Made by a program: the position numbers and the translations under genes. The notes below the pieces were generated by a model that was not told the DNA's origin, searched no databases, and was given only the letters and a program-made list of their open reading frames with translations. From a virus: a stretch of 64,000 nucleotides of DNA. Location of the stretch: IMG/VR virus record IMGVR_UViG_3300028559_000015, positions 25,905 through 89,904 of that record. The stretch is one strand, 5' to 3'. Positions 15,371 to 61,796 of the stretch are shown here, piece by piece (positions within the stretch are counted from its first letter, which is position 1; the number at the start of each line of letters is the position of its first letter).

Positions 15371-16219
15371 ATGAAAAAGATTTTGGTAACAGGCTGTTCA
15401 GGATACATCGGTTCGCACCTTTGTAAGCTGCTTGAACAGGACTATGAGGTATATGGACTAGATGTTAATAAACCTAAACATCCAGTAAAAGAATTCTTTC
15501 AGGTTGATATCAACAAGCCGTTCAAGACTGACAGAGAGTTTGACGCGGTGGTGCATCTGGCTGCGTTAGTCAACGTCAGTGAGAGTGAGGTGATTCCAAT
15601 CATGTATTACATCACTAACCTTAACGGTACAATGAATGTGCTGAACAAGGTCAAGACGAAAAACTTCATCTTTGCTTCTACCGGTGCAGCAGCACTGTGT
15701 GAAAGCGCATACGGTATTAGTAAGAGAGCCGCAGAGGATGTAGTCACTGAATATTGTACGCGCCACACCTCTACTCCTTATACGATTTTTAGGTTTTATA
15801 ACGTTCTTGGTTCGTCAAGTTATCCACCCACTAACCCGGATGGCTTGATGTACAAGATGATGGAATCTAGTTATACTAGAGAGTTCACGATCTTCGGTGA
15901 TGACTATGACACCTCGGACGGAACGTGTGTGCGTGACTATGTTCACGTTGATGAAATCTGCGAAGCTATCAAGCTAGCAATCGAAAAGCCAGCTAATAAG
16001 GTCGAGTGCTTAGGTCATGGTGTAGGTTACACGGTTAAAGAAATCTTTGACAAGTTCCTAGAAGTGAATGAGGAAGCGTTGTATAAAGACACCGATGAGG
16101 CAATTCTTTGTAAAGTCGGCCCCCGTAGAAAAGGGGACATACCTCATAGCGTACTAAAAGATGTGTCCCCTTATATGAAAAATCTCTATGCTATAGAAGA
16201 TTTACTCAAGCTACCCTAG
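15371..16219 (+). CDS. Sugar nucleotide epimerase (GalE-like, extended SDR)
   Basis: 282 aa. N-terminal NAD-binding GCSGYIGSHL near residue 7, VHLAALVNV near 63, catalytic YGISK near 117 and FRFYNVLGSS near 143, in the order of UDP-glucose 4-epimerases and related dehydratases. The upstream in-frame extension overlaps the glycosyltransferase and is not used; ATG 15371 sits two bases after it. It ends 4 bp into a convergent gene on the other strand. It probably makes the nucleotide sugar for one of the glycosyltransferases. Confidence 0.92.
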   Translation: MKKILVTGCSGYIGSHLCKLLEQDYEVYGLDVNKPKHPVKEFFQVDINKPFKTDREFDAVVHLAALVNVSESEVIPIMYYITNLNGTMNVLNKVKTKNFIFASTGAAALCESAYGISKRAAEDVVTEYCTRHTSTPYTIFRFYNVLGSSSYPPTNPDGLMYKMMESSYTREFTIFGDDYDTSDGTCVRDYVHVDEICEAIKLAIEKPANKVECLGHGVGYTVKEIFDKFLEVNEEALYKDTDEAILCKVGPRRKGDIPHSVLKDVSPYMKNLYAIEDLLKLP

Positions 16220-17478
16220 TGCATCAACAGGAATGAGTTGAGAACGTCGTTGCGATTGGCAGAATCATCTCCGTCGCCCGGCTTAACGATAACGTTCCAC
16301 TTGCCTACTTCCTTACTCTGAGGTGTCTTCATCATCTCATCATATGTCAATATAGATTCTGGCTGCACACTGTATTTTGCAGCAAGGCGTTGCTTAAGCG
16401 AATTGATTGCGTTTTTGTCTATGTAGAACAGCTTTCCTTTTTCATCGCGATCCAGAAGGTCTTTGAATAGAACTTCAGGAACAACTCTACTGTTCTTGGT
16501 TTTTTGGAAATCAATCTGCTTCTCTTCTCCGGGCTTCGCCCCCATCGAATAGTTGATCTTGAAGTTATTTGGTTTCGACCCTTGAGCGACTGATGCTAGT
16601 TTGGTGTAAGCATAGAAATCTACATTAGGATGCTTTTTAGCCAATGCATACGACATTGCGAGATATTGAGGAGAGAAGAAGTCGCCGGCATCATGCCAAC
16701 GAATAACAAGTTTAGTTTTCTTGTCTTTCTTGTTGAACTTCTTGTCAGCCGCATCGATTTCTCTGCTCATCATGTCCATGAAGCCGTCAGGGTCGTTGTA
16801 CAAGAAGTTCAGAAGCTGCGTTTGTCCTTCAGCGACATTCTTCCACTGAACATATCCGCCCTTCAGGGCGTAGCAATACGTCTGACATTCGCCTGCTCCG
16901 GGGCAAGTGTCGATTACCACGAATTTTTTATCGTCTTCGTCATACGCTAGTCCTTTAAGAGCAGGAAGACCCACGTTATAGAATACACTAGCAGTGCCAT
17001 CACTGTGCTGCATCTTTTCATTCTGTTTGAGAACTTTAGATGGTCGTCTAGTTATCAAATCGCGTAGGGCATCTAGGTCGTATTTTTTACCGTCTTGGTC
17101 AACGATTGGAACTACTGAACTTCGGTGAATATAAGGCTTCTTGAACTTGTCCTGCTTAGTTTTGCCTGACACATACTTTTCAGTTCCGCGAGCAGTCTTT
17201 TTTGCTGCACCCGTCTTAGGGTCTGTGACAGGTTTACCCATGATACGATCTAGATAACCCTTCAATTCTTTTGGACTTAACTCACGCGCAGGTGCGTCAA
17301 TTTTAGCTTCTTCGATTTCCTCATCTTCTTCCACGTTTTTTTCGTCAGGTGTTACTACGCCTGATGCATTGAGAAACTGATCTAACGTCATCACGTTCAA
17401 TTTATCCGAAAACGGGGAAGAACCCTTGACTTCTTCCGAATTCTCTGTTATAAGATTAAGTATGTTTCTAATATCCAT
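16216..17478 (-). CDS. GP88-domain-like protein with capsid-targeting-type N-terminus
   Basis: 420 aa from ATG at 17478; the longer frame upstream lacks a ribosome site. Central region TCPGAGECQTYCYALKGGY near residue 205, RWHDAGDFFSPQYLAMSYAL near 270 and VDFYAYTK resemble the mycobacteriophage GP88 domain, where Cys residues and H-x-x-G-D are conserved; the activity of that domain is not known to me. The first residues MDIRNILNLITEN end in I-T-E, the T4 prohead-protease recognition form. A late promoter sits upstream. It is convergent with the epimerase gene. Confidence 0.65.
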   Translation of the reverse strand: MDIRNILNLITENSEEVKGSSPFSDKLNVMTLDQFLNASGVVTPDEKNVEEDEEIEEAKIDAPARELSPKELKGYLDRIMGKPVTDPKTGAAKKTARGTEKYVSGKTKQDKFKKPYIHRSSVVPIVDQDGKKYDLDALRDLITRRPSKVLKQNEKMQHSDGTASVFYNVGLPALKGLAYDEDDKKFVVIDTCPGAGECQTYCYALKGGYVQWKNVAEGQTQLLNFLYNDPDGFMDMMSREIDAADKKFNKKDKKTKLVIRWHDAGDFFSPQYLAMSYALAKKHPNVDFYAYTKLASVAQGSKPNNFKINYSMGAKPGEEKQIDFQKTKNSRVVPEVLFKDLLDRDEKGKLFYIDKNAINSLKQRLAAKYSVQPESILTYDEMMKTPQSKEVGKWNVIVKPGDGDDSANRNDVLNSFLLMH

Positions 17479-33101: not shown

Positions 33102-34628
33102 ATGCGTGATATCATAGACAGACTGGAACTTATCAGCGAAAGCACAGGACTAGCCGGTAGAAGAACGGGTGACGTTTTTCGCAACGGCGACGGTGATGAG
33201 ATCACTTTTGACAATATCATGTTTGTCCCTGAACAGGGAGGACGGTTAGAGGATAAAGACCTAGACGATGCTATCGTTTCCGTTGACGATGCGGTACAAT
33301 GGTTGAACAATCGCACGAGTCGTACAGGAGGGTACGCTATTGCTACCTTTAATGGGCCTGATGGTCCTTTATATTTCGGTAGATACTTAGACAACATCAA
33401 AGCCAACTTCGTGTCTAACTATGTTCCTAATCAAGTAGCAGGGTATAAGCTTGCTACGAAGACTGCATTGAAAGCTCAAGCAGGATTGACTCCTCAGGAA
33501 CTTTTAACAGAAAAGACTGACCTGACAGCAAATGATATCATCAAGCAGCTTTCAGTAAGTTTGGGCGTTGACAACCCACTGTACACAGTTGCTTACAACC
33601 TATCTATGGGAGAACCTCTTCCAATATCCTTTGCTGCTCCTCCCGGGGTTAGCTTCTCTGCATTCAGAGATTACTTTTGTGAAATTCTACAACCCATTGC
33701 ACTTCAAAGAGGTGAATATACAGTTAAGGCAGGGGATGATCCTAAAATCCTGTTAGATGGCAGCTTCGATGGTACGCTAATCTCATTTGATTTCAGCAAG
33801 ACTGCTGGATTGAGTGATAGTACGATGTCCAACGAAGACGGTAAGTATGTAAAGGTTAGCAGCAAGGGAGGCACCGGCGCAACTGCTAGTACAAAGAATC
33901 TAATCAACAGTGTAGAGGAACTCTCTCACACTCCCAATGGTAAAAAGGTATTGGATGACCATATAGAAACAATAGAATTGCTCCGTGAGATTGTTGCACT
34001 AGGACAGGCAGGTGCTCCTCTTGGTTTGGGTGTTAAGTTTGATATCATTGATGACGAAGACGCTGCACAGATTCGTGACTTAAAAGATACCCCACCTGTC
34101 AAAGCAGATAAGATCGATGACCTTGGGTTGAGTGATAATCTTGTAAAGTTAGCTAAATCTAGAAAGCCTGACAACCCAGAAAGAATCAGTCTTTATTTCC
34201 ATCTAATCGCAGCAATAGCGCATAAGGTTGCGAAGGAAGTAAACGAGACTACTGAATTTAGTAAGGCAGCAGCAGACATTCTGAACAACGGGTCATTAGT
34301 ACAAGTTTATACCACAGCCAAGGCAGGCAAGGAAATCTGGACCTTAGACAAGTTCGCTACTGTTTATCCCGGAAATAGCATCAGGGGCGTCTATCTATCA
34401 GCTTCTAAGACGTACTACAGCACGGGCATCAAGGGTAACTTCACGTTCAAGATTGATCGAGGCAAGGGAGTACCTGAAGATGATAAGCCAGGAGAGATGC
34501 GAGCTAAGAGAATTCAGACAGATAAAGAATTCGAGAAGAAGGCCGCAGACATTGCTCTAGGCAGAGAAAAGCCCAAAGAAAGAATTCCTTCTAAAATGGG
34601 AGATGTTGGGCGTTCATTGCGAAAGTAA
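33102..34628 (+). CDS. Large hypothetical late protein with capsid-targeting-like N-terminus
   Basis: 508 aa from ATG 33102. It starts MRDIIDRLELISEST, with I-S-E in the protease-recognition form. Mixed alpha/beta with YVKVSSKGGTGATAS near residue 253 preceded by DGTLISFDFSKTAG; D then K-x-S-x-K is reminiscent of a nuclease core but cannot be proven. The C-terminus is basic (REKPKERIPSKMGDVGRSLRK). Late promoter just upstream. Function unknown. Confidence 0.65.
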   Translation: MRDIIDRLELISESTGLAGRRTGDVFRNGDGDEITFDNIMFVPEQGGRLEDKDLDDAIVSVDDAVQWLNNRTSRTGGYAIATFNGPDGPLYFGRYLDNIKANFVSNYVPNQVAGYKLATKTALKAQAGLTPQELLTEKTDLTANDIIKQLSVSLGVDNPLYTVAYNLSMGEPLPISFAAPPGVSFSAFRDYFCEILQPIALQRGEYTVKAGDDPKILLDGSFDGTLISFDFSKTAGLSDSTMSNEDGKYVKVSSKGGTGATASTKNLINSVEELSHTPNGKKVLDDHIETIELLREIVALGQAGAPLGLGVKFDIIDDEDAAQIRDLKDTPPVKADKIDDLGLSDNLVKLAKSRKPDNPERISLYFHLIAAIAHKVAKEVNETTEFSKAAADILNNGSLVQVYTTAKAGKEIWTLDKFATVYPGNSIRGVYLSASKTYYSTGIKGNFTFKIDRGKGVPEDDKPGEMRAKRIQTDKEFEKKAADIALGREKPKERIPSKMGDVGRSLRK

Positions 34629-34699: not shown

Positions 34700-35281
34700 A
34701 TGAGCCTAGTTCCAATCGTACTCGAACAAACTAGCCGCGGTGAACGCAGCTACGACATTTATTCACGCTTGCTTAGAGAGCGTGTCATTTTGCTTGAGGG
34801 CGAAGTGCATGACCAAATGGCTAACTTGATTGTTGCCCAACTTCTTTATCTTGAATCGGAAGATTCAGATAAGGATATTTCTCTCTACATCAACAGCCCT
34901 GGCGGCAGTGTCACTGCTGGTCTAGCGATTCTTGACACCATGGATTTCATTAAATGTGATGTATCTACTATCGCAATTGGAAGCGTTTGCTCTATGGGGT
35001 CTTTGATTGCCAGTTCCGGTGCCAAAGGGAAAAGGTTTATTCTTCCTAGGGCGAGGCACATGGTTCACTCGGTGTCCGGTGGATCCCGCGGTACAGTATG
35101 GGATGCTGAAATCCAAATGGAAGAAATGGTTCGGTTGAATAACCTTCTTACTGAGGTTTATGCTAACAACACCGGTAAAACTATTGAAGAACTTAAAGCT
35201 GCTATGGCTCGCGACAACTATATGGATGCCCATGCATCCGTTGAGTTTGGATTAGCGGATAAGATCCTTACTTCTAGGTAA
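34700..35281 (+). CDS. clpP: ClpP serine protease
   Basis: 193 aa. Catalytic Ser98 in GSVCSMGSL, His123 in [10 protein letters not shown] and Asp172 in ARDNYMD, with the spacing of E. coli ClpP (25 and 49 residues between them). The N-terminal loop, handle helix and INSPGGSV are present. The usual H-Q-P-x-G around the His is changed to H-S-V-S-G. With phage ClpX carrying an IGF loop, a phage-coded ClpXP complex is possible. The stop is overlapped by the antisense homing endonuclease by 8 bp. Confidence 0.95.
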
Positions 35282-46288: not shown

Positions 46289-46831
46289 ATGAAAAAAACA
46301 TACCTCTTTAAAAATAATAACTCAAGTAAGCCGATTGTATACGTGGATCTTGACGGCGTATTAGCTGACCTCTATAACCATGCCGCTGAAATTCACAATG
46401 TTGAACATTACAACGAAATGACGAGAGATGAATGGGAGACATTCTTCAAAGATAGCAACGCACATCATCTTTTTCGTGACATTCCCCCTTTCGTTACTGC
46501 AAATCAACTGCTCAATCTTGCAAAGAAGTATGCCGGCGGATATCGTATTCTTAGCAGCCCATTGAACTTTGACCGCGAAGGTAGCATCAAGGGCAAGCGT
46601 GAATGGCTTGCAAAACATATCAATGTTCCTGCTGATGAGATTATCTTTGAACATGAAAAATACAAGTACGCTGTGCAGCCCGACGGTACTCCTAACGTAT
46701 TGATTGATGATTATGGCGTGAACACTCGTGCATGGGATAACGCAGGAGGCATCGCTTGCAAATATCAGGCTGACGAGAATGACCTTAGTGTGGTAGAGGA
46801 TGTTCTAAAAGAAACATTCGGGGATAAATAG
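46289..46831 (+). CDS. HAD-superfamily 5'-nucleotidase-like protein
   Basis: 180 aa. D-x-D motif I as VYVDLDGVLADL near residue 18, motif II region ILSSPLNFDREGS near 87, motif III/IV NVLIDDYGVNTRAWDNAGG near 136. Resembles cytosolic 5'(3')-deoxyribonucleotidases. May hydrolyse dNMPs or a DNA-base intermediate. Start ATG is preceded by a weak ribosome site. Confidence 0.82.
   Translation: MKKTYLFKNNNSSKPIVYVDLDGVLADLYNHAAEIHNVEHYNEMTRDEWETFFKDSNAHHLFRDIPPFVTANQLLNLAKKYAGGYRILSSPLNFDREGSIKGKREWLAKHINVPADEIIFEHEKYKYAVQPDGTPNVLIDDYGVNTRAWDNAGGIACKYQADENDLSVVEDVLKETFGDK
46823..46830 (+). promoter_or_regulatory. Late promoter GATAAATA
   Basis: GATAAATA across the previous stop codon, 20 bp before ATG 46851 with GGAGAG between. 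Confidence 0.65.
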
Positions 46832-49617: not shown

Positions 49618-49833
49618 ATGACTAAAGAAAATACACTTAAAGTAGAAGGAGATGTGATTGACGTACTCCCAAACGCAACATTCAAAGTCAAGCTTGACAA
49701 TGATATGATTGTATTGAGTTACATATCAGGAAAGATGCGGCAGCACGAGATTCGCATTTTGATGGGCGACAAGGTTGAACTTGAGATTAGCCCATATGAC
49801 TTATCAAGAGGCAGGATAGTTAGGCGTAAGTAA
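49618..49833 (+). CDS. infA: Translation initiation factor IF-1 homologue
   Basis: 71 aa (E. coli IF-1 72). [40 protein letters not shown] and [14 protein letters not shown] reproduce the S1-type IF-1 pattern including the conserved ISGKMR and R-I-L-x-G-D. IF-1 binds the ribosomal A site at initiation. No ribosome site is strong, but the frame is complete. Placed between structural late genes. A phage IF-1 is unusual. Confidence 0.93.
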
Positions 49834-49843
49834 TAGCTGAAGT

Positions 49844-49851
49844 GATAAATA
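49844..49851 (+). promoter_or_regulatory. Late promoter GATAAATA, 5 bp from start codon
   Basis: GATAAATA, five bases before the SOD ATG. Confidence 0.65.
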
Positions 49852-49856
49852 GTCTC

Positions 49857-50417
49857 ATGAGAGAATTTATCACGCTTCTTGAGGAAAAGTCAAAACCCCA
49901 AGACATAGAAATCATCCCACTTAACTTCACTGAGCGTGAAGTTTCTCCCGTTATGGGGGAAGACACCTTAGACTTGCACTACAATAAGCTCGCTAAGGGA
50001 TACGCACAACGCTACAATGACAAAGAAGGTGACCCTGAGTTTAACTACGCAGGGGCATTCCTACACAATATGTGGTTCCCTCAGTTCAGGGAAGTGAGAA
50101 ACAACAACAAACCAAATGGTCCTATGGTAGGATTCATCAACAAGCACTTCAGTAGCTTCGATGATTTCAAGGACGACGTAGAAGAAGTCGCTATGACGAT
50201 ACAAGGTTCCGGCTGGGTCTATCTAGCTTATGACGGTAAGATCAAGACGATCAAGAACCATGAAGTGCGTGACGACATCTTGCTGCTGATCGACTGGTGG
50301 GAACACGCTTGGGTTCTTGATTATGGGAGTGACAAGAAGAAGTATCTCAAAGAGCTTTGGAAGATCATCAACTGGAACGTGGTTTCTACCCGTTTAGGAA
50401 AATTCTGGTCGTCGTAG
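49857..50417 (+). CDS. Fe/Mn superoxide dismutase-like protein with capsid-targeting N-terminus
   Basis: 186 aa. Metal ligands of the family are all present: H41 in DLHYNKLAKGY, H70 in FLHNMWF, D146 and H150 in IDWWEHAW; GSGWVYLAYDGK near 120 is the usual GSGW. An active superoxide dismutase is likely. The first residues MREFITLLEEKS are not part of a normal SOD; they match the T4 capsid-targeting peptide (E-F-I). The start at 49857 is supported by this peptide and the late box, not the in-frame ATG at 49842. Confidence 0.9.
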   Translation: MREFITLLEEKSKPQDIEIIPLNFTEREVSPVMGEDTLDLHYNKLAKGYAQRYNDKEGDPEFNYAGAFLHNMWFPQFREVRNNNKPNGPMVGFINKHFSSFDDFKDDVEEVAMTIQGSGWVYLAYDGKIKTIKNHEVRDDILLLIDWWEHAWVLDYGSDKKKYLKELWKIINWNVVSTRLGKFWSS

Positions 50418-50600
50418 ATGGACACTAATGATCTAAAAAGACTTGCCGGTATTGTTGATAGTAGAGGTAAGCCTACTCATGCGGAGCCCATTGACCGTAG
50501 CAAGATCACTGCGAAACCCGGCACAGACGAATGGTTCAAAGCAATGTTCCCAGTGAACGATATGCAAATGCCAGTCGGGTTCAGAGGCCGAAAGAAATGA
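50418..50600 (+). CDS. Hypothetical protein, 60 aa
   Basis: Starts directly after the SOD stop: MDTNDLKRLAGIVDSRGKPT, ending FPVNDMQMPVGFRGRKK. Charged and short. Could be a small head-interior protein, as its neighbours. Overlaps the next gene by 4 bp. Confidence 0.6.
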   Translation: MDTNDLKRLAGIVDSRGKPTHAEPIDRSKITAKPGTDEWFKAMFPVNDMQMPVGFRGRKK

Positions 50601-50932
50601 GAGTTAAAGAACTCCTGAATGAGTCTGCTAGACTGACAGCATATCATGCCACTCCTAGAGATAATCTAGGAAGTGTATTACACAACGGATTGGTTCCAAA
50701 AAAGAGCAAGCATTATCCTAGTGCAGGTAAAAGAGTATATCTTTTTCCATCAATCGATGCCGCAAATGAAGCACTTTTGGATTGGTTAGAAGATAGATTT
50801 TCGAATGATATTCTATCATTGTTAAAGATTGACATTCGTGGATTATCTGTATTTGAGGATTTTGATGAACTTTATACTACCGATCCAATATCACCTGATA
50901 GAATTTCAGTAATAGACGAGCATTGGGGATAG
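50597..50932 (+). CDS. ADP-ribosyltransferase-like protein with capsid-targeting-type N-terminus
   Basis: 111 aa from ATG 50597. MRVKELLNESARL carries an L-N-E protease-type site. Then AYHATPRDNLGSVLHNGLVP: the Y-H-x-T, L-x-x-x-G-L and a later VYLFPSIDAANEALLDW correspond to the conserved Y-H-x-T ... G-L start of many small ADP-ribosyltransferases. The E-x-E or similar catalytic Glu is not obvious. T4 Alt is a packaged ADP-ribosyltransferase, so this fits the context. Assignment is tentative. Confidence 0.6.
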   Translation: MRVKELLNESARLTAYHATPRDNLGSVLHNGLVPKKSKHYPSAGKRVYLFPSIDAANEALLDWLEDRFSNDILSLLKIDIRGLSVFEDFDELYTTDPISPDRISVIDEHWG

Positions 50933-50933
50933 T

Positions 50934-51962
50934 ATGAGAGCCAGCGAGTTTATAACTGAATCAACTACTTCAATAGGTGATCAGATTCAATCTCAACTAG
51001 GATTGAAAGTCTTTAACCTCTACGATCAAGGAAATACCATTGTATTAGCTTCATTGGTAGTCGGTAAAGATAAGCAGGGACAGGGTTTGGGTACTAAAGC
51101 TATGACGATGCTGACTGACTATGCTGATGAGCATGGTAAACGCATCACGTTGACTCCTGGTTTACAAGATAAGATACAAGGTACTACTTCTAGGGGTAGA
51201 CTCGTTAAATTCTATAAGAAATTTGGCTTCAAAGAAAGCAAAGGTAGAGATATTGATTACGCACTAGGTGCTGGCAAGATGTATCGTGAACCTAAACTAG
51301 ACGAGATGGCTCTTCCTACCGACTGGGACCCAGCAGCACTTGGGCACGACAAGTCGTTCAAGAGTCGCTTACAATATGCCCTAGAACGTGCCCCTAAGCT
51401 CGGGGGCGGGTCTAGTAGAGTTGCACTCATCATTCCCGATCAGGGGCGTGAAACCGTGCTTAAGATCGCTAAAAACAGGAAGGGAATGGCTCAGAACCAA
51501 GCTGAAGTTGATATTCTCACTGACGGGTATGCAGGGCAGTTAGACATTGTTATACCTATGATTGACTATGACCAGCAAAATCCTCAACCCACTTGGCTTC
51601 AAACCGAAAAAGCAAACAAAGTAAGTGACGCTAAGTTAAGAAAATTACTACACTGTGACAAGACTTGGATGGGCATGATGTATTTCACAAATGCAGTCCG
51701 ATACATGATAGGTGATCGCTCACCGTATCAGCCTGACCTACCCAACATTAAAGAAAGAATGTTTCAGGCGGGTCAAACAGAACAAGATTGGGATACCTTC
51801 ATTGAATACGTAAATGAGGTTGCTACTTTGGTTAGCGCATCGGGTCTTTTAGTTGACGATTTGATGGCTGCATCCAACTGGGGAGAATATAAAGGTAGAC
51901 CAGTTGTTATCGATCTAGGATATACCGAAGCAGTTAAATCAATGTATACAAAAGGACGATGA
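50934..51962 (+). CDS. Two-domain protein: GNAT acetyltransferase and kinase-like, capsid-targeted
   Basis: 342 aa. First residues MRASEFITES match the T4 capsid-targeting peptide. Residues about 30-110 form a GNAT domain: LVVGKDKQGQGLGTKAMTML has the Q-x-x-G-x-G acetyl-CoA loop, then KFYKKFGF. Residues about 130-335: GGGSSRVALIIPDQGRETVL, an E-V-D-I-L helix, and RPVVIDLGYTE look like a small protein-kinase-like fold with D-x-G; catalytic residues are uncertain. Probably a packaged, injected effector. Confidence 0.65.
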   Translation: MRASEFITESTTSIGDQIQSQLGLKVFNLYDQGNTIVLASLVVGKDKQGQGLGTKAMTMLTDYADEHGKRITLTPGLQDKIQGTTSRGRLVKFYKKFGFKESKGRDIDYALGAGKMYREPKLDEMALPTDWDPAALGHDKSFKSRLQYALERAPKLGGGSSRVALIIPDQGRETVLKIAKNRKGMAQNQAEVDILTDGYAGQLDIVIPMIDYDQQNPQPTWLQTEKANKVSDAKLRKLLHCDKTWMGMMYFTNAVRYMIGDRSPYQPDLPNIKERMFQAGQTEQDWDTFIEYVNEVATLVSASGLLVDDLMAASNWGEYKGRPVVIDLGYTEAVKSMYTKGR

Positions 51963-51963
51963 G

Positions 51964-52746
51964 ATGAGAGCTAGAGAGTTTATCACCGTAACCGAAAACA
52001 TTGAAATCCCTATCGGGCGGGGTCGTGCTAATACTTCTGTACCAGACATTTTATATCATAGTTTGCGTGGAAGGGCACTTAACATGTCAGGTGGAATTGA
52101 CGCATATGTACCGGGAAATCCGCAGGAATGGCGTGAACTCGGCTCTAGGTTTAGGCAACCGATACAAGGACTCGTGTATCTTAGTAACAAACCATTGGAT
52201 CAGAGTGCTTTGGCGATTGATGTACACAAACTTAATCCAAACCTACTTAGATATACCGGTCAGTCCGAAGGTTATCTAATATACGGTGACAATATTCCCG
52301 CAGATGCTATCATTGATGTTTCCAAACAAGAAATTGATGAGAACGACGAACCTGTAAGAATCAAAATCGGCGGAACTGACCCTAAAGTTAAATCCTGGAT
52401 TCAAAAAGTATATGACATGTTCCCGCAGCAATTTGGAAACAAGCATGTCATGCCTCTAGGCGGAGAAGGGGACGATCAGGAGTTTGCATTGTTTGTGCTT
52501 GTTCCTAGTTTCAGCAAGCGAGGCGCAGTAGAAGTTAAATGGATTGAAGCCTCTCCGCTCAGACAAGGGGTAGGTGGGAGAGCTATGAAGATACTGCAAG
52601 ACCTAGCACGACAAGACGGTATTGCTCTTACACTTTATCCCTGGGACAAAGGACAAGTATCTCAGGCAAAGCTCATGAAGTTTTATAAGAAACAAGGCTT
52701 CGTGCCAAGAAGCACAGGCTCTAAAAATCTGATTTGGGAACCCTAA
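51964..52746 (+). CDS. ADP-ribosyltransferase-like plus GNAT protein, capsid-targeted
   Basis: 260 aa, start one base after the previous stop. MRAREFITVTENIE resembles the capsid-targeting peptide. N-terminal half DILYHSLRGRALNMSGGIDA, GLVYLSNKPLDQ and YLIYGDNIPADAI has the order Y-H-S, Y-L-S, then a strand, as in small ADP-ribosyltransferases. C-terminal half is a GNAT domain: RQGVGGRAMKILQDLA and LMKFYKKQGF. Fits an injected effector. Confidence 0.6.
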   Translation: MRAREFITVTENIEIPIGRGRANTSVPDILYHSLRGRALNMSGGIDAYVPGNPQEWRELGSRFRQPIQGLVYLSNKPLDQSALAIDVHKLNPNLLRYTGQSEGYLIYGDNIPADAIIDVSKQEIDENDEPVRIKIGGTDPKVKSWIQKVYDMFPQQFGNKHVMPLGGEGDDQEFALFVLVPSFSKRGAVEVKWIEASPLRQGVGGRAMKILQDLARQDGIALTLYPWDKGQVSQAKLMKFYKKQGFVPRSTGSKNLIWEP

Positions 52747-58131: not shown

Positions 58132-59001
58132 ATGGCAACCCCAATACAAATCGGAGCAGGCATGAAATACCCATTCGCTGTGGTCGACGAGACACAAGAT
58201 CCAGGACTACATCGTATTCCCATCGTGCTTAAGCCGGCTAAATTACCGATTGACATTGATAAATTTCATTGGGTTCGTGACAAGCCTGACAGTAGAGATT
58301 ACCTCTATCGACCAACCACTGCCAAAACACCGTCTACCGTTGATTTGAGAGAATTTGCAACACCCGTAGAAGATCAGGGTAGCTTGGGTAGCTGCACGGG
58401 ACAGGCTGTTGCCAGCGCGATTGAATTGATCAACAAGAAAAACAAAATCGTGAACGAAGTTAGCAGGTTGTTCATCTACTACTACGAACGCCTGCTGATT
58501 GGCACTGTCCACTACGATAGCGGGGCATACATCAGAGATGGAATCAAAGCTACAAACCGATGGGGCGCACCATTAGAAAACTTATGGCCCTATAACATAT
58601 CCAAGTTTAGGTCAGCTCCTTCTCGTCCTGCTGTCATGGATGCGTCAAAGCGCAAGGTCACGCGGTATGAACGTGCTGCTAACTTCAACGCCTGCATTGA
58701 TGCACTATCGAACGGGTATCCGGTTATTGTCGGATTCACTGTTTACAGCAGCTTCATGAGCGGCAACTGGTCGCGTACTACTGCTGTCATGCCCTATCCT
58801 AATACCCGCTCGGAGAGAGTCCTAGGGGGTCACGCGGTGCTTCTAGTAGGATACAACAATTCTACTCAACACTTCATTGTCAAAAATAGCTGGGGAACCA
58901 ATTGGGGCGATAGAGGATACTTCTATATGCCGTATCAGGTAATACAGAACACTAGAATGAGCGCAGATTTTTGGGTTATCAAAGGTGTAAATAACCCGTA
59001 A
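58132..59001 (+). CDS. Papain-like cysteine protease with shared N-terminal tag
   Basis: 289 aa. Peptidase C1-type: Cys in QGSLGSCTGQA near residue 87, His in LGGHAVLLVGY near 235, Asn in FIVKNSWGTNWGD near 250. N-terminal PIQIGAGMKY repeats the tag of the two LamG proteins. Possibly a virion protease that acts on host surface or matures fibres. Starts one base after the previous stop. Confidence 0.92.
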   Translation: MATPIQIGAGMKYPFAVVDETQDPGLHRIPIVLKPAKLPIDIDKFHWVRDKPDSRDYLYRPTTAKTPSTVDLREFATPVEDQGSLGSCTGQAVASAIELINKKNKIVNEVSRLFIYYYERLLIGTVHYDSGAYIRDGIKATNRWGAPLENLWPYNISKFRSAPSRPAVMDASKRKVTRYERAANFNACIDALSNGYPVIVGFTVYSSFMSGNWSRTTAVMPYPNTRSERVLGGHAVLLVGYNNSTQHFIVKNSWGTNWGDRGYFYMPYQVIQNTRMSADFWVIKGVNNP

Positions 59002-59068: not shown

Positions 59069-60427
59069 CTAGTTCTTAGCGATCTTCTTAGCGATAACAG
59101 AAAACAGAGGGCCCGTCACGTATCTATTAAGGGATTGATTCATCATCCCGTTTTGCATCTCTTTGATCATGTCGGGTGTCAGGTTCCTAGCTCTCCAACC
59201 GTTTTTAAGCAGTAGATGAACTTCTACAGGGTCGTCACCTTCTAGTTTTTGAATGGCTAGCATACGGTTGCGTCCTTCGTGCCCGGAGATGCTAGCGGGA
59301 TGAGTAAAGTCATCTTCTTCCCAGTCAGCAGGGATTTTGACATCTAGAAAAGGTGCGCCCAATGCTCCGCCATTTTTCAGGTGTTGCACGATATACTCTA
59401 CGCTTCTAGGTTCATTAAGTGGTAAAGCTAGATTCAAGAATGTGCTAGGCTTCATCAGAACACGCAAGCCAAAATAATCAACATTTTGATTATAAGGAAC
59501 TGAACCCAAACCTTCTACGTTGTCTACTTTGTACTCTGACAAGTTTTCCGATAATGTGTAAAATAGGTGATTGCCAACAGTTGCTACATGATCAAGATTG
59601 GCATTCCATGCCGGATCGACATCTGTAGTATGATAGTACACTGCACCGTTAGTAGGATCGGACGCTCTACCAGCTATGATCTTTCTTGCAAGGTCTTTAG
59701 CTAACAACCAAGCTTCGTAATCCATGTAATCCCCGGAATTTTTAAACTCAGCAAACCATTCATCAAAGGGAGTGCCATCTGGAGATTGTCTAAGATTAAT
59801 CAGTCTATCATACTGCAACATTTCTTTAATACGATCTCTATTAGGATCACCCTCATTCCAGCAACTGAACTGCTTTGGTTTGAGCGCGACACCGCGAATG
59901 CCATAACCAAACCTTTTCATATTTGCTTCGGCGCGGTTCTTGATGACGTTCCCTATAGCTAGCATCCCGATAGCGCCATGACTGCGAGCTTCACCCCACA
60001 TGGTCTGTGCTAATATGCTTACGTCAGGGTTTTCAGCGGGAGCAACAGTAGAAGCTACTGCCGGCTTAGGTCTAACTTCGGGAGCAGTCTTAGGTTGCAT
60101 CGTGTTCGGTCCGCCGGCAGCCAAAGCACCGGCGACACCGATAGCACCTAATGTTTTCTTCCAGTCTTCTTCTAATACTGATTCTTTCAATGCCTGCTTG
60201 AGGAAGTATGAGTCGATGGCGACGGTATCCCCGACTTTTACTGCTGTCTTCCTTCCAGGAATTACTTCAGCAGCAACGATCTTTATCTTGTATTTCCCTT
60301 TAGGAGAAACATCAAGTATCTTACCGTTGAGAACAGAATAATCTGGATAGTTCTTAGTGAGGGTGAGATCAAGCACTCTACCCACTTCTACGGACCTGTA
60401 TTCAGTTATAAATTCAAATGATCTCAT
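59069..60427 (-). CDS. SleB-type hydrolase with ParB-like C-terminal part and capsid-targeting N-terminus
   Basis: 452 aa from ATG 60427. MRSFEFITEYRSV matches the capsid-targeting pattern with an I-T-E site. Residues about 140-295 follow the cell-wall hydrolase (SleB/Hydrolase_2) order: ILAQTMWGEARSHG (with the Glu) and DPTNGAVYYHTTDVDPAWNA. C-terminal 130 residues include SISGHEGRNRMLAIQKLEGD, a ParB-like GxEGRxR segment. May be carried in the head and help DNA entry. Confidence 0.75.
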   Translation of the reverse strand: MRSFEFITEYRSVEVGRVLDLTLTKNYPDYSVLNGKILDVSPKGKYKIKIVAAEVIPGRKTAVKVGDTVAIDSYFLKQALKESVLEEDWKKTLGAIGVAGALAAGGPNTMQPKTAPEVRPKPAVASTVAPAENPDVSILAQTMWGEARSHGAIGMLAIGNVIKNRAEANMKRFGYGIRGVALKPKQFSCWNEGDPNRDRIKEMLQYDRLINLRQSPDGTPFDEWFAEFKNSGDYMDYEAWLLAKDLARKIIAGRASDPTNGAVYYHTTDVDPAWNANLDHVATVGNHLFYTLSENLSEYKVDNVEGLGSVPYNQNVDYFGLRVLMKPSTFLNLALPLNEPRSVEYIVQHLKNGGALGAPFLDVKIPADWEEDDFTHPASISGHEGRNRMLAIQKLEGDDPVEVHLLLKNGWRARNLTPDMIKEMQNGMMNQSLNRYVTGPLFSVIAKKIAKN

Positions 60428-60431
60428 AATT

Positions 60432-61796
60432 TCACCATCTTCTCGGCCGAGATATCGACCGACTGGCCGTCCAAGTACCACCGTCTCTTTTCATGCTGAT
60501 GTTTCTCTTAACAAAGTCTGCCATTCCACCATCGTTCTCTCGTCTTGGAGGAAATTCCTTCTCTATGTTTGCAGCAATAACATCTGTTAGATCAGCAATA
60601 GAGGGTAGCATACTGCTAAAATCTTCAGTATCTACTAAACGGTACAAATGCCTCTGTAAATATTCTGCTGAAGGCCGAATTGCGTCTTGCATTCCAATAC
60701 TAAATCTGCGAGCCTCGTCATTCCACCTTATATAATCGTCACCGGCGTTCTGAACTTTATCCCAATCAATTTCACCGTCATCGTCGCCATATTGTTTTTG
60801 CATTTCACCGTAGTAATAATCGTCATTCTGTTCCCATTCAAATATTACTTCCCACATCTTCTCTTGGGCAATCGTTGCGATCTGATCAATGTACGTTTGC
60901 AACACTTCATCAGGTGTGAACTCTATTGATTCTTTTATTTCAGGTTCATTCTTATAAAAGAATTCAAGTAATTCTGGAAATCTTTTAGTCAGTAAATGAT
61001 ATAGAGATATCTCAGAATCATTCTCGTCCATGAATTGACCTGTAGGGAAGTGCAGTTGGTATTTCTCTTTGTCATACTCTGGCTTCTTTGGAATAATAAT
61101 ATACAGCTTACCTTGCCGACTGTAATGATTAAAGTAGTTCTCACCTTTAGTAGCAGCAGTGCACCAGTGTGTTTCAGCACCGTAGCGGCAAGCAGCGGCT
61201 TCATCGTGTGGAACAACGACAAGTACATCACCGTTTTCAAAGACTTTAGATGCTTGACCTTTTTCTTGTACTTTTTTCTCAGTGTTATCTATGGCATCCA
61301 GATCATAGCCCAAACGCATTGTTTCTTCAAAGTCGGTATAAGACTTGAAAACGTTGATGTCATTGTGTTCTGGACTAATCATACGTCTTCTTTTACCAAT
61401 ATCGTAGATGCCCAATATATTTCCACGATTTAAGTCTTCTAACTTGACATCACCGCTGACATACATTCTTGCTAACCAAGGGGTATATATTTTATTTGGA
61501 GTAGGATCTTTTGTTTCGATGACACTCAGCAAGTCTTCTAGAAATCTCGCTCTGACTGCAGGGTCTTTGATGAGGGGGCCGGACTTTTCTCGGTAATCAG
61601 AAGATGAAGCATCTTGATCACCTGGAATAGTTACGGGTCTATCCATCCGAAGACTTATCAGACTGCTTCGCACCTGATCAAGAGGACCCACATCACCGCG
61701 GTCGGCAATTACAGCTTTTTCAGCTTTCTCACTTCCAGAGATTGTCTGAGCGGTTTTCTTACGATCATACTCAAACAGGAATTCCCGGGCCCGCAT
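60432..61796 (-). CDS. Capsid-targeted protein with WCTA motif, 454 aa
   Basis: Starts MRAREFLFEYDRK (E-F-L-F-E). Centre: VLVVVPHDEAAACRYGAETH followed by W-C-T-A-A, then FNHYSRQGKLYIIIPKK, and a F-P-T-G-Q-F. These Y-G-x-x-T-x-W-C-T-A and Y-S-x-x-G-x-L strands define a domain I cannot name; the next gene has a variant. The C-terminal half is helical. Likely a late, packaged protein. Confidence 0.7.
   Translation of the reverse strand: MRAREFLFEYDRKKTAQTISGSEKAEKAVIADRGDVGPLDQVRSSLISLRMDRPVTIPGDQDASSSDYREKSGPLIKDPAVRARFLEDLLSVIETKDPTPNKIYTPWLARMYVSGDVKLEDLNRGNILGIYDIGKRRRMISPEHNDINVFKSYTDFEETMRLGYDLDAIDNTEKKVQEKGQASKVFENGDVLVVVPHDEAAACRYGAETHWCTAATKGENYFNHYSRQGKLYIIIPKKPEYDKEKYQLHFPTGQFMDENDSEISLYHLLTKRFPELLEFFYKNEPEIKESIEFTPDEVLQTYIDQIATIAQEKMWEVIFEWEQNDDYYYGEMQKQYGDDDGEIDWDKVQNAGDDYIRWNDEARRFSIGMQDAIRPSAEYLQRHLYRLVDTEDFSSMLPSIADLTDVIAANIEKEFPPRRENDGGMADFVKRNISMKRDGGTWTASRSISRPRRW

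Follow-up and report, generated by a model that had tools for sequence, protein, structure and literature searches.

Why should a virus carry a gene for superoxide dismutase (SOD), and why should the encoded enzyme begin with an extension that resembles the leaders of phage head proteins? These questions are raised by an open reading frame in the 64,000-nucleotide stretch of viral DNA analyzed here (the window). A first-pass annotation had read its product as an Fe/Mn SOD with all four metal ligands and an N-terminal capsid-targeting peptide.

Identity and active site of the phage SOD

The gene was found to encode a protein of 186 residues (Table 1). A longer GTG start at 49842 was rejected; it runs into the promoter box and lacks conservation. 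The Pfam model Sod_Fe_C (PF02777) was matched at 2e-24, and the N-terminal hairpin model PF00081 scored 0.0013, under the cutoff. The top PDB chain was found at 1.5e-23, and the SODs of known structure nearest to it are Fe and cambialistic enzymes. An AlphaFold2 model built with 51 phage sequences gave a mean pLDDT of 90.5 and was used instead of an earlier model from 25 close sequences (pLDDT 65.7), which was dropped. Comparison of the model with solved SODs using Foldseek gave TM values of 0.76–0.82 (E ~1e-12). The gene is confirmed as a genuine Fe/Mn SOD, with an identity far above chance, and all four metal ligands (H41, H70, D146, and H150) were borne out.

Table 1. Features of the SOD gene and its downstream neighbors, in window coordinates
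Feature	Position	Strand	Remark
SOD open reading frame	49857..50417	+	ATG at 49857, stop at 50415-50417
T4-type late promoter box GATAAATA	49844..49851	+	5 nt before SOD ATG
Putative capsid-targeting leader MREFITLLEE	49857..49886	+	predicted prohead-protease site L-L-E9 (or L-E-E10)
Metal ligand His41	49977..49979	+	163/163 relatives
Metal ligand His70	50064..50066	+	163/163 relatives
His135, predicted water-coordinating C-terminal His (SodFM3/4-like)	50259..50261	+	163/163 relatives; role by analogy with PMC10172142
Metal ligand Asp146	50292..50294	+	163/163 relatives
Metal ligand His150	50304..50306	+	163/163 relatives
111-aa ORF, leader MRVKELLNE/S	50597..50932	+	no Pfam or PHROG match
GNAT-containing protein, leader MRASEFITE/S	50934..51962	+	Acetyltransf_1 6e-7 (Pfam)
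GNAT-like protein, leader MRAREFITVTE/N	51964..52746	+	weak Acetyltransf_1, E 0.016

Among the 163 aligned phage SODs, Y49 (the Tyr34 position), W148, and E149 are also invariant. The His30 position is occupied by Leu in 163/163, with loss of the HXXXHH motif, and at the Tyr163 position essentially every sequence has a residue that is small or aliphatic. Relative to reference sequences of SodA and SodB from E. coli, the alpha-hairpin of the phage enzyme is shorter by ~24 residues, and residues 1 to ~17 of the window SOD are extra. A C-terminal water-site His is typical of SodFM3/4 (PMC10172142). The phage SODs show this residue and have lost the C-terminal His of the HXXXHH motif; both are SodFM4 traits, but His30 is lost as well. 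As judged from the alignment, the phage SODs form a divergent clade distinguished by the C-terminal water-site His, Leu in place of His30, and a short alpha-hairpin.

At least 584–595 phage SOD relatives were confirmed, on environmental phage contigs. A search with the SOD of Pseudomonas phage PA5oct as the query returned one locus, and a search with the Vibrio SOD returned no matches. The dN/dS ratio, from a single unsaturated pair, is 0.04. A cellular donor of the gene was considered and rejected; the sole match among genome contigs sits on a contig with ORFs that are phage-like by eye. One SOD fragment (L118), on a phage-like contig filed as a Methylophilaceae MAG, adjoins ORFs that resemble, by eye, SufB, SufC, cysteine desulfurase, and SufE.

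The N-terminal leader and the late-promoter box

The leader of the phage SODs spans 13–17 residues and is missing from cellular SODs. It is predicted to be unstructured; residues 1–7 and 9–11 have pLDDT values below 50 in the AlphaFold2 model, versus more than 90 for the core. E9 is present in 81/81 close relatives. Across 80 close relatives there is little or no variation at M1, R2, I5, L7, L8, and E9, and position 10 is variable; the residue after the Glu is in most of them E or D and not the commoner G, A, or S. Distant relatives have very different leaders that nevertheless close with [LI]xE, and the next residue is mostly G, A, or S. By lineage the leaders include MRDIITLLE, MAYNFIQKFIVEG, MYNFIRYVSLNEG, and MKIRLLLES, with MNDSIKKYISIAEA in PA5oct. 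In T4, the protease gp21 cleaves after L/I-x-E, propeptides are 7–65 residues long, and ten residues of IPIII are enough for targeting (PMC9026906).

The motif [LIV]xE was found in 78 of 81 unique leaders (shuffled mean 37.9, maximum 52) and [LIV]xE[GAS] in 40 of 81 (shuffled mean 3.6, maximum 14), counts that are not independent events because the sequences share ancestry. As a control at the same loci, unique N-termini were scored for [LI]xE in 23 families from the surroundings of the SOD genes, each with at least 15 members. The share was 96% for SOD, 92% for two other leader-bearing families, 65–75% for a few, and 0–25% for the rest, which include the IF-1, QueD, dCMP deaminase, and fiber families. 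The family of the GNAT-containing protein two genes downstream is at 92%. The gp21 motif is thus kept across divergent leaders and is rare in most neighboring families. The proposal that the N-terminus is a capsid-targeting sequence is well supported by this pattern but not proven.

A late box lies 4–7 nt upstream of the SOD ATG in 58/80 close relatives, and the TAAATA core was found in 70/80 distant relatives. In a 335-kb relative, the box precedes 25/365 ORFs vs 1/1547 internal ATGs. Taken with established knowledge of T4, the GATAAATA box is best read as a T4 late promoter. The box is 5 nt from the ATG, and the SOD transcript therefore probably has little or no untranslated leader.

Similar N-termini were observed elsewhere in the window and in related loci. 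A 508-aa ORF (33102-34628, +) has a late box AATAAATA at 4 nt and the leader MRDIIDRLELISE/S, both as in SOD; it matched nothing in PHROGs and nothing at a significant level in Pfam. A GP88-like protein (4e-31; 16216-17478, -) carries the leader MDIRNILNLITE, with a GATAAATA box farther upstream. The leader MRSFEFITE is followed by a Cell Wall Hydrolase domain (2e-18) at 59069-60427 (-). A 454-aa protein with the leader MRAREFLFE (60432-61796, -) is homologous to PA5oct gp279 (31% identity, 9e-20), which likewise carries a note of mass-spectrometric detection. L007, L008, L011, and L045 encode deoxyribonucleotidase homologues that begin with leaders of this kind, for example MRIEELLEG and MKIQELLES; the window copy at 46289 is without such a leader. 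Immediately 5' of SOD is an IF-1 homologue (7e-22; 49618-49833, +) of a 59-member family found across related loci, and the tail-fiber region encodes a papain-family cysteine protease (9e-18; 58132-59001, +).

Probable virion packaging and competing explanations

A gp21-type protease (Peptidase_S77) is encoded by the 335-kb relative (4e-28) and by PA5oct (5e-24). A gp23-type capsid protein is encoded in 7 relatives and a gp55-type late sigma factor in 5. No capsid gene was found on the 89.9-kb fragment that carries the window SOD, and for this reason the joint presence of protease and SOD is established for relatives rather than for this genome. The window also encodes a ClpP protein (Pfam, 5.5e-70; 34700-35281, +); such proteins are named head maturation protease by PHROGs and in PA5oct, a possible annotation trap.

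The explanation that we favor, and regard as reasonably probable, places synthesis of the SOD in the late phase of infection. Its N-terminus would act as a capsid-targeting sequence, as in the T4 internal proteins, and direct the enzyme into the prohead. A gp21-type prohead protease would then trim ~9–10 residues, and the mature enzyme would stay packaged alongside the DNA. The benefit, most simply, would be removal of superoxide from the vicinity of the packaged DNA or from the cell just infected. The first-pass annotation had proposed that a virion-delivered enzyme could protect phage DNA or the new host from oxidative damage at entry, an interpretation that the present results support in part. 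We infer packaging, cleavage, activity, and benefit from the features described above; packaging in the virion by itself is likely.

Evidence bearing on virions comes from PA5oct. Its gp223 is 39.9% identical to the window SOD over 93% of the query, and the annotation carries an "ESI-MS/MS" note. There are 93 PA5oct coding sequences with such notes, among them ribonucleotide reductase, thymidylate synthase, and DNA ligase. Because these include cytosolic enzymes, the detection of gp223 is not specific and supports packaging without proving it. The leader motif occurs in 5/87 detected vs 3/248 undetected PA5oct proteins (p = 0.03), a comparison within one genome in which SOD is among the five. 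This motif-only enrichment was set aside as weak evidence for packaging.

The strongest competitor is an ordinary auxiliary SOD that acts late in the infected cell to curb superoxide from disturbed respiration, with the extension serving stability, oligomerization, or localization and the protein being at most a virion contaminant. A phage Fe/Mn SOD has already been reported as a host-buffering auxiliary gene (PMC12542629), and the cytosolic enzymes on the PA5oct list are in keeping with this explanation. The homologue from Vibrio 2.275.O is a SOD without the leader, and in some relatives IscA-like or Suf-like ORFs adjoin the SOD gene. However, the gp21 motif persists while the remaining leader diverges, nearby enzyme families do not retain such a motif, and the leader is predicted to be unstructured. 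We consider a purely intracellular role unlikely, while still the main contender. It is far less probable that the SOD is packaged as an internal protein with a structural or scaffold-associated role, its dismutase activity being incidental or no longer present. The Leu at His30, the small or aliphatic residue that virtually all members have at the Tyr163-equivalent, and the shortened hairpin would fit such a role, but the metal ligands, the Tyr34-equivalent, the C-terminal His, and the active-site/interface Trp and Glu are invariant in 163 sequences. On account of this invariance we argue that catalysis is retained, and the window SOD is probably active. The last alternative is an over-read annotation, in which an N-terminal helix and an A/T-rich string that arose by chance are taken for a leader and a late box. 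It agrees with the weak enrichment within a single genome but is already disfavored to the point of being negligible by the motif conservation across lineages, the family control, and the rarity of the box at internal ATGs.

Beyond packaging of the SOD, we suggest tentatively that a widespread group of jumbo phages may ship head enzymes with leaders that gp21 can remove. These would be SOD and, in certain members, deoxyribonucleotidase and GNAT acetyltransferases, the SOD being injected against oxidative stress or a host oxidative response at entry. If packaging is correct, phage particles would contain an antioxidant enzyme, and oxidative stress, whether met at entry or by the free virion, would become a testable selective force on phages. 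The T4 capsid-targeting tag would then serve to package a metabolic enzyme in phages represented by several hundred environmental contigs.

Comparison with known systems

No report of SOD in phage virions or as head cargo was found in the literature searched, and SOD as capsid cargo appears to be new. The phage enzymes share with cellular SodFM proteins (PMC10172142) the fold, the four metal ligands, the Tyr34-equivalent, and, with SodFM3/4, the C-terminal water-site His. They differ in the absence of HXXXHH, the ~24-residue shorter alpha-hairpin, and the presence of the leader. PA5oct gp223 and its Wroclawvirus relatives have the leader in the same position (ISIAE/A), with the mass-spectrometry note on the PA5oct copy. 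In contrast to the window SOD, gp223 is labeled hypothetical, comes from a phage with a Pseudomonas host, and has another leader sequence; its homologues in Callisto and MIJ3 are annotated as sodB.

The T4 internal proteins IPI, IPII, and IPIII (PMC9026906, PMC3012670) likewise have a short leader ending in L/I-x-E with variable cargo behind it, and the phage SOD relatives likewise encode a gp21-type protease and a gp23-type capsid protein. The cargo here is a SOD enzyme rather than a small basic protein, and the leader sequence is unlike that of T4. The T4 proteins are cut by gp21, whereas packaging and cleavage of the SOD are predicted. T4 Alt, an ADP-ribosyltransferase that is packaged and injected (PMC9026906), is likewise an enzyme in the head, but it serves host takeover and has a fold unrelated to that of the SOD.
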